Source of the DNA: Clostridia bacterium
Lineage (GTDB): Bacteria > Bacillota > Clostridia > UBA1381
Length of the DNA: 50,318 nt
Direction of reading: 5' to 3'
Assembly: GCA_017415105.1 (NCBI GenBank)
Contig: JAFQJD010000016.1
Span: forward strand, 1-50,318
The notes under the pieces were generated by a model. That model did not search any database. It had not been told where the DNA came from and worked only from the letters and a program-made list of their open reading frames with translations. The position numbers were made by a program, and so were the translations under genes. Below are positions 12,520 through 20,090 of this stretch, piece by piece (the first letter of the stretch is position 1; the number at the start of each line of letters is the position of its first letter).

Positions 12520-12597
12520 TTACTCGCCAGAAGATGTTTGCTCCGAATGCTGAAACTTAGAGAAATGCATTCTCCGCAAACACCTTTTGGCGAGTAA
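12520..12597 (+). repeat. Structured intergenic element, copy 1 (leuD-leuB)
   Basis: A long imperfect hairpin. TTACTCGCCA (12520-12529) pairs with 12588-12597 and the helix continues to TGTTTGC/GCAAACA (12535-12541 with 12576-12582) with one mismatch and one G-U. A TCC/TCC internal loop, a GAATGC/GCATTC helix (12545-12550 with 12567-12572) and a 16-nt terminal loop follow. There is no T-run, so it is not a standard terminator. The same architecture recurs at 19951-20025 with compensatory base changes. Confidence 0.75.
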
Positions 12598-19950: not shown

Positions 19951-20025
19951 ACTCGAACAAAAACATCTGCTCAAAACGCTAACACTAAAGAAAATGCGTT
20001 TTTTCGCAGACATTTTTGCCCGAGT
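19951..20025 (+). repeat. Structured intergenic element, copy 2 (grpE-dnaK)
   Basis: ACTCG (19951-19955) pairs with CGAGT (20021-20025), CAAAAA (19958-19963) with 20013-20018, TCTGC (19966-19970) with GCAGA (20006-20010), and AAACGC (19974-19979) with GCGTTT (19996-20001). The terminal loop is 16 nt (19980-19995). Helix order, internal-loop position and loop length match the copy at 12520-12597, while the paired bases differ in a compensatory way. Confidence 0.75.
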
Positions 20026-20039
20026 ATCTATTACAAAAC

Positions 20040-20073
20040 GCTCGTGCTAAGAGGGATGCACCCTTAAACGAGC
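20040..20073 (+). other. Second hairpin upstream of dnaK
   Basis: GCTCGT (20040-20045) pairs with ACGAGC (20068-20073), with an inner AGGG/CCCT stem. No T-run follows. It lies 14 nt after the larger element and about 40 nt before the dnaK start, and no promoter is visible between them. Confidence 0.5.
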
Positions 20074-20090
20074 ACAAAGTAGAAATATAA

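Follow-up and report, generated by a model that had tools for sequence, protein, structure and literature searches.

Results

Hairpins in the leuD-leuB and grpE-dnaK gaps

The stretch of DNA that we analyzed (the window, 50,318 nt) is contig C7 of genome G000 (1.80 Mb, 40 contigs; 93.87% complete). Hairpins lie in two of its intergenic gaps, leuD-leuB and grpE-dnaK (Table 1). The identities of LeuB and DnaK were confirmed with NCBIfam, and leuD and grpE were named from position and by eye. Both hairpins were found where the initial annotation had placed them, and both fold far better than shuffled sequence. The fold z of the leu copy was -8.56 on the plus strand and -8.34 on the minus strand, and that of the dnaK copy was -5.77 and -7.45, respectively (0/200 shuffles each). 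The helices, the 16-nt terminal loop and the loop end AAAT that had been described are present in the sequence.

At both places the minus strand is antisense to the operon (leuB or dnaK). On this strand the covariance model R2 (see below) scored the leu copy at 82.7 bits and the dnaK copy at 67.2 bits, compared with 35.8 and 20.4 bits on the plus strand. The RNA fold of the dnaK copy was -37.8 kcal/mol on the minus strand and -24.7 kcal/mol on the plus strand. Rfam 15 gave no match in the window at the gathering score, and none overlapped the elements at E up to 5 (3 loci). A further hairpin, GCTCGT...ACGAGC at 20039-20074, stands between the element and the dnaK ribosome-binding site. It was considered as a family member and rejected; by blastn it is a single copy in the genome.

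Table 1. Positions and parts of the two hairpins in the window
Feature	Position	Strand	Remarks
leuD-leuB gap hairpin	12521..12596	-	constrained strand minus; model match 12523-12594
leu copy, apical part	12542..12575	-	3x3 internal loop and upper helix
leu copy, 3x3 internal loop	12542-12544 + 12573-12575	-	GGA/GGA = G·A, G·G, A·G
leu copy, upper helix GAATGC/GCATTC	12545-12550 with 12567-12572	-	
leu copy, terminal loop, 16 nt	12551..12566	-	minus strand = ATTTCTCTAAGTTTCA; read from sequence and alignment A3
grpE-dnaK gap hairpin	19951..20025	-	constrained strand minus; model match 19952-20024
dnaK copy, terminal loop, 16 nt	19980..19995	-	minus strand = ATTTTCTTTAGTGTTA; read from sequence and alignment A3

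Copies in the genome and in its relatives

With the leu copy as query, blastn gave 24 matches in G000, the weakest of them chance. A first covariance model (19 copies) returned 39 rows, four of which were the opposite strand of listed hairpins, which leaves 35 distinct places. The second model, R2, describes the other strand and added a 36th place (C10:83009-83071). The two gaps therefore share a hairpin, as had been claimed, but they are not a private pair: both belong to a family of 36 places in G000, with a model length of 72 positions. Six copies (L056, L058, L021, L080, L081 and L083) have a smaller terminal loop and form a sub-family of only 63-64 nt. Some copies in this genome are paired, six times in inverted and once in direct orientation, and the spacers of paired copies vary (by eye). 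A scan of the window for hairpins alone, without sequence, gave far too many matches to be useful.

The check proposed in the initial annotation, a covariance-model search of this genome and its relatives, thus yielded many further copies, in five genomes of the genus, whose helices covary. Model R1 had matches in 6/61 genomes, all within the genus of the window; its match in G006 was weak (E 1e-4) and absent with R2. At E up to 1e-4, R2 found the element in 5/70 genomes of the family (G000, G015, G012, G009 and G001), that is, in 5/16 inside the genus and 0/54 outside. There were 14 R2 matches in G012 and four in G009. A class-wide search at E up to 1e-5 found it in 2/391 genomes, both of this genus, though absence elsewhere in the class is weak evidence because only 12 candidates per genome were scored, with strict filters. 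A strict pattern that covers some but not all of the known copies found 10 stretches over genome contigs (two in G009 and eight in scattered taxa, taken for chance) and none in viral contigs.

The G012 copies are more uniform, at 84-97% identity to one copy among the 13 best full matches besides the query, and are presumably recent. Two of them (L119 and L127) apparently sit in the loop of intrinsic-terminator-like hairpins (by eye), with the flanking sequences GCCGAGC...GCTCGGTTTT and ACCGCC...GGCGGTTTTT. In G001 the hairpin sits inside a repeat of ~0.5 kb with inverted ends of ~40 nt (L171, about 1088-1641; L061, L065, L172). Across the four copies of this repeat the stem is nearly invariant and the terminal loop is different in each. 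The larger repeat had matches in G001 but none in G000 or G012. Another recurrent operon-gap sequence, AAGCGTCGCA, was seen in L152 and L165 (G015) and L038 (G000). In the G015 gaps, GCAATTTGCTCGCTTCT or CAATTTGCTCGCTTCT comes after it. This sequence is possibly a second palindromic repeat family.

Covariation and shared shape

To quantify pairing we used two alignments. A2 holds 19 of 21 copies, two short-loop copies being omitted. A3 holds 47 copies from five genomes (28 of the 36 places in G000 and 19 copies from relatives). It omits the six short-loop copies, L082, C10:83009 and L071, as well as several G012, G009 and G001 copies and one G015 copy.

In the 19 copies from G000, 90.1% of pair cells were paired, compared with 70.0% after shuffling. 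Double-change cells numbered 106 against 31.3, and the covariation score was 0.594 against 0.202 (0/500 shuffles). In the 47 copies, read on the other strand, standard pairs rose to 95.0% (71.3% shuffled), double-change cells to 300 (82.0 shuffled) and the score to 0.744 (0.254 shuffled, 0/500). The shuffles ignore the relatedness of the copies. Slid controls, which do correct for it, left at most 45.3% of the cells paired, and in G000 the outer arms carry no sign of relatedness (see below). Change on both sides was seen at 23 of the 25 pairs, and RNAalifold, unaided, gave the same 25 pairs. The paired compensatory changes that had been noted between two copies are therefore borne out across the family. 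The case for selection acting on a folded single strand is strong.

The shape is conserved more than the letters. The base, described as ACTCG/CGAGT, is present in the window copies, but the outer helix is longer than this and its letters vary widely. Position preference there is weak: 9/13 pair columns keep one above the 99% shuffle level (28 G000 copies), and none of the outer-arm or middle-arm columns of A3 is invariant or nearly so. At columns 14-64 a nearly fixed pair reads G·U in 35 copies, with G-C in 7, U·G in 3 and A-U in 2 others. The loop starts with ATTTY (AUUUY) and ends in A. What had been called a small internal loop is indeed present, and is more specifically a tandem G·A motif on the stable strand (the minus strand in the window), with two or three G·A/A·G pairs in 39/47 copies. 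G·A/A·G pairs in this 3x3 loop numbered 88 against 66.9 shuffled (0/2000). Its variants include GGA/GGA, GUA/GUA, GAA/UGA and CGA/GAG, among others.

Strand of the structure

On the strand read in the initial annotation, arm mismatches are mostly A·C, which the opposite strand reads as G·U. On the element's own strand A3 has 113 G·U and 17 A·C, or 75:17 once the nearly fixed pair is set aside. A rougher tally of 54 copies, made on the opposite strand, gave 58 isolated A·C and C·A against 7 G·T and T·G outside the fixed position; in this count the short-loop rows and some rows with indels are out of register and some cells noisy. The 54 copies omit L082 (C1:67622, weak) and L063 (G006, weak, not refound by R2), and they include L071 although it is identical to L047.

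The stable strand had the lower energy in 28/28 copies of G000, with RNA and DNA parameters alike. The difference was -34.9 vs -26.0 kcal/mol with RNA parameters and -17.5 vs -14.5 with DNA parameters. Without the fixed pair, the G·U:A·C ratio was 33:9 for the 21 G000 copies with an anti-coding stable strand and 11:3 for the 7 with a coding one. By these counts the strand bias travels with the element and is independent of gene orientation. The excess of G·U over A·C and the covarying tandem G·A loop place the constrained structure on the minus strand in the window. The earlier claim of selection on RNA structure thus stands as selection on a folded single strand, but it had taken the plus strand, which was the wrong one.

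In DNA, too, G·T and G·A rank with the most stable mismatches, and RNA is therefore not proved by these pairs; the sequence data would fit RNA and single-stranded DNA forms alike. In one study, frequent G·T pairing in REP stems is taken as a sign of acting as RNA (PMC3733652), a reading that would favor RNA over DNA for the present element.

Genomic setting

Gene contexts cover 34 of the 36 places in G000. All 34 copies, in 28 gaps by simple ORF calls, lie between co-directional genes. As 34/42 junctions in the window are co-directional, 28/28 would arise by chance with p about 0.003. Among full-length single copies in the common orientation, 12/15 begin 4-18 nt after a stop codon and 11/15 end 20-50 nt before the next start. 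The stable strand is antisense to the genes in 18/21 single copies (two-sided p 0.0015); C10:83077, which has an inverted neighbor, was not counted as single. In G012 some copies lie between convergent genes (L072 and L074).

Twenty neighboring genes named by family searches have no common pathway. They include leuB, dnaK, hisA, a glmU-like gene, nfo, argS, an mrp-like gene, era, trpS and ybeY. Further downstream proteins are AMP-binding, NA37, AICARFT, ACT, deaminase, HIT, class II tRNA synthetase, DHH and LMWPc, and the gene for DnaA lies upstream of its element copy. In the flanks of 28 copies in G000, 12 positions on each side, no position carries more than 0.5 bit.

Presence and absence between relatives

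In R2 searches at E up to 1, no element was found in the leuD-leuB gap of 9/9 genus relatives compared, nor in the grpE-dnaK gap of 11/11. The element-free gaps are mostly short, and a few are longer with other sequence (G003 and G007 at dnaK).

We compared 19 gaps of G000 with those of its sister G015, which is 87% identical over one shared segment and 69% complete. Fourteen had no element in G015 (by eye, 7 tight and 7 with other sequence), three had a different copy or type, one of them in opposite orientation, and two had orthologous copies. With R2 on 16 of the G015 gap stretches, an element at E below 0.01 was found in two, argC-argB and metK-mrp, each with a short-type copy (some gene names were assigned by eye); one extra row at E 0.99 was taken for chance. 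Other gaps occupied in both sisters are glyA-argS (identical), rbfA-nrnA (an orthologous inverted pair) and glmM-glmU (rather different). G015 also has copies at gaps without any found in G000, for example tpiA-gpmI (by eye). The argC-argB gap holds copies of different type and opposite orientation in the two sisters (L154 in G015, L040 in G000), which suggests that this site was occupied independently.

Among the 34 copies of G000 and G015 that were compared, nearest copies are 67-79% identical, orthologous pairs apart, so no recent copying is visible in G000 itself. The orthologous pairs L029/L064 and L052/L075 are 88% and 75% identical, respectively. Changed pairs were still paired in 9/9 cases for L052/L075 and 3/5 for L029/L064, and in 8/12 for the same-gap pair L035/L077. 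The pairing kept in place in L052/L075 would also fit a local function.

Search for traces of movement

Pfam searches of G000 (93.87% complete) for Y1 transposases and reverse transcriptases were negative, so neither enzyme explains mobility there. The Y1 model PF01797 had matches in 4/16 genomes of the genus (G001, G003, G012 and G014) and none in G000, G015 or G009. Target-site duplication was not evident overall in the 28 G000 copies (mean 4.18 vs 4.03 shuffled, with 62/300 shuffles as high). Inspection by eye gave possible duplications at 2/7 tight empty sites, L053 (AAGAG) and the L054/L037 pair (AGCACA). The idea that the arms derive from the insertion site was rejected, as this was not seen at empty sites (by eye).

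To compare the histories of loop and stem, we used the 34 copies of G000 and G015. Loop identity did not follow outer-arm identity (Spearman -0.007) or upper-helix identity (0.017), and followed middle-helix identity weakly (0.13; pairs of copies are non-independent). In the 28 G000 copies, loops and upper helices each cluster beyond what independent columns give (1/1000 shuffles as clustered), a signal of shared ancestry in the loops, and the outer helix showed no clustering (332/1000). Three copy pairs have identical 16-nt loops with outer arms only 27-46% identical. This mismatch is odd for simple copying. Either the arms would be replaced on moving, or the loops would be limited to a few types while the outer stems are saturated.

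Discussion

We propose that the hairpin is a genus-restricted, non-autonomous, REP-like mobile palindromic repeat of ~72 nt that is read as a folded single strand, and give this a probability of roughly 0.6. Of the three functions offered in the initial annotation, the REP-like mobile repeat fits best, although not as a member of the REPs; a variant outside the defined REP superfamilies is favored. The element would move, and its folded single strand would be recognized as DNA exposed at replication or repair or, less likely, as an RNA intermediate. A putative enzyme that reads shape more than arm letters would let the arms change while still pairing, and only foldable copies would appear at new sites. 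The orientation bias would then reflect tolerance, with the mRNA carrying the weaker, A·C-mismatched form. A mobile folded-strand hairpin would account for the turnover and the inverted pairs, and for a structure that favors one strand whichever way the genes run. We hold it doubtful that the hairpin is recognized almost purely by shape and moved, with replacement of its arms, by an enzyme that is neither Y1 nor reverse transcriptase.

The likeness to REP, BIME and REPIN sequences is considerable. These are short, species-restricted intergenic palindromes, with some pairs in opposite orientation and often between unidirectional genes (PMC3733652, PMC8266576). The present element shares the intergenic siting, the imperfect palindrome with an irregular stem and the one preferred strand. 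Unlike REPs, it is 72 nt rather than 20-40 bp, has no GTAG/CGTC tag and no Y1 found in its genome, its arms vary widely yet covary, the spacers of its pairs differ (by eye), and the strand it prefers usually lies antisense to the genes.

Integron attC sites have variable arms and conserved boxes (R and L) at the stem base. The outer and middle arms of A3 hold no invariant or nearly invariant column, and the named neighbors are housekeeping genes rather than cassettes. Common to both is a hairpin folded from one strand: the attC site is a folded single-stranded hairpin with a strong preference for one strand (PMC6393395). A survey of stem-loops in 40 genomes describes 92 families, two thirds of them with a common structure and intergenic (PMC2267715), and like these the present repeats have a common predicted hairpin. 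Of its species considered here, the nearest are Clostridium perfringens and C. tetani, and the word compensatory does not occur in its main text. In the literature searched, which most subscription papers lie outside, no publication was recognized as describing this hairpin family.

Candidate structured RNA motifs and riboswitches show strong covariation over a conserved core, and so does the present element. It differs from them in that it was genus-only in our searches and had no match in Rfam 15, and from a riboswitch or regulon leader in its mostly antisense stable strand and functionally unrelated downstream genes.

A cis element of the polycistronic mRNA, used by the host for RNase processing, stabilization or translation insulation and setting expression of the downstream gene, seems unlikely to us. 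Siting between co-directional genes throughout the G000 copies examined, the usual distances from stop and start codons, and the 9/9 changed pairs kept by L052/L075 speak in its favor. The constrained strand, however, is not the mRNA strand in most single copies, its preference is equal in both orientations, and some G012 copies lie between convergent genes. The processing, stability or protein-binding site for the downstream gene proposed in the initial annotation is not supported on this ground, the constrained strand being antisense to leuB and dnaK and orientation-independent; an mRNA site is also hard to reconcile with leu and dnaK gaps of relatives and most sister gaps that lack it, and with neighbors of no common pathway. 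Slightly less probable again is that each copy encodes a small RNA, antisense or free, and that the copies form a separate family of structured RNAs. Covariation, G·U wobbles and tandem G·A pairs are typical of structured RNA, and the two strands differ more in folding with RNA than with DNA parameters, but the 28 G000 copies have no conserved flank able to hold a promoter or terminator, no Rfam match was found, the copies turn over between sisters, and the same mismatches are stable in DNA as well.

Inverted pairs, intergenic siting and a strand-specific irregular hairpin would also be expected of a true REP or REPIN that belongs to the GTAG or CGTC superfamilies and is left without its RAYT gene by loss or by a gap in the assembly, and recognition by TnpA-REP is strand-specific and uses stem irregularities (PMC8266576). 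We think this improbable. In the 12 nt that flank the stable strand on its 5' side, 1/28 copies have GTAG and 0/28 have CGTC, and 0/28 have CTAC in the 3' flank; the length is also wrong, and Y1_Tnp was not found in the copy-bearing genomes G000, G015 and G009 (G015 only 69% complete). The last point counts against GTAG REPs only, since CGTC REPs are described as having no dedicated transposase (PMC3733652). The paired changes in arms of little fixed sequence could also come from template-switch (quasi-palindrome) correction at replication, which would keep a neutral palindrome without selection. This predicts perfect palindromes on both strands, whereas the 3x3 loop and the G·U at 14-64 are preserved without matching and just one of the two strands is poor in A·C, and we regard this origin as very improbable.

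For work on other genomes, the mobile folded-strand reading urges caution: an intergenic hairpin with strong covariation need not be an mRNA element and can instead be a mobile repeat whose structured strand is antisense. The count of G·U against A·C is a cheap indicator of the constrained strand. RAYT transposases account for many of the palindromic repeats of bacteria, with a short tag for recognition, and the present family shows neither. Its near-complete covariation on one strand, without a detectable Y1 or tag, offers a direct way to ask what reads the folded strand.
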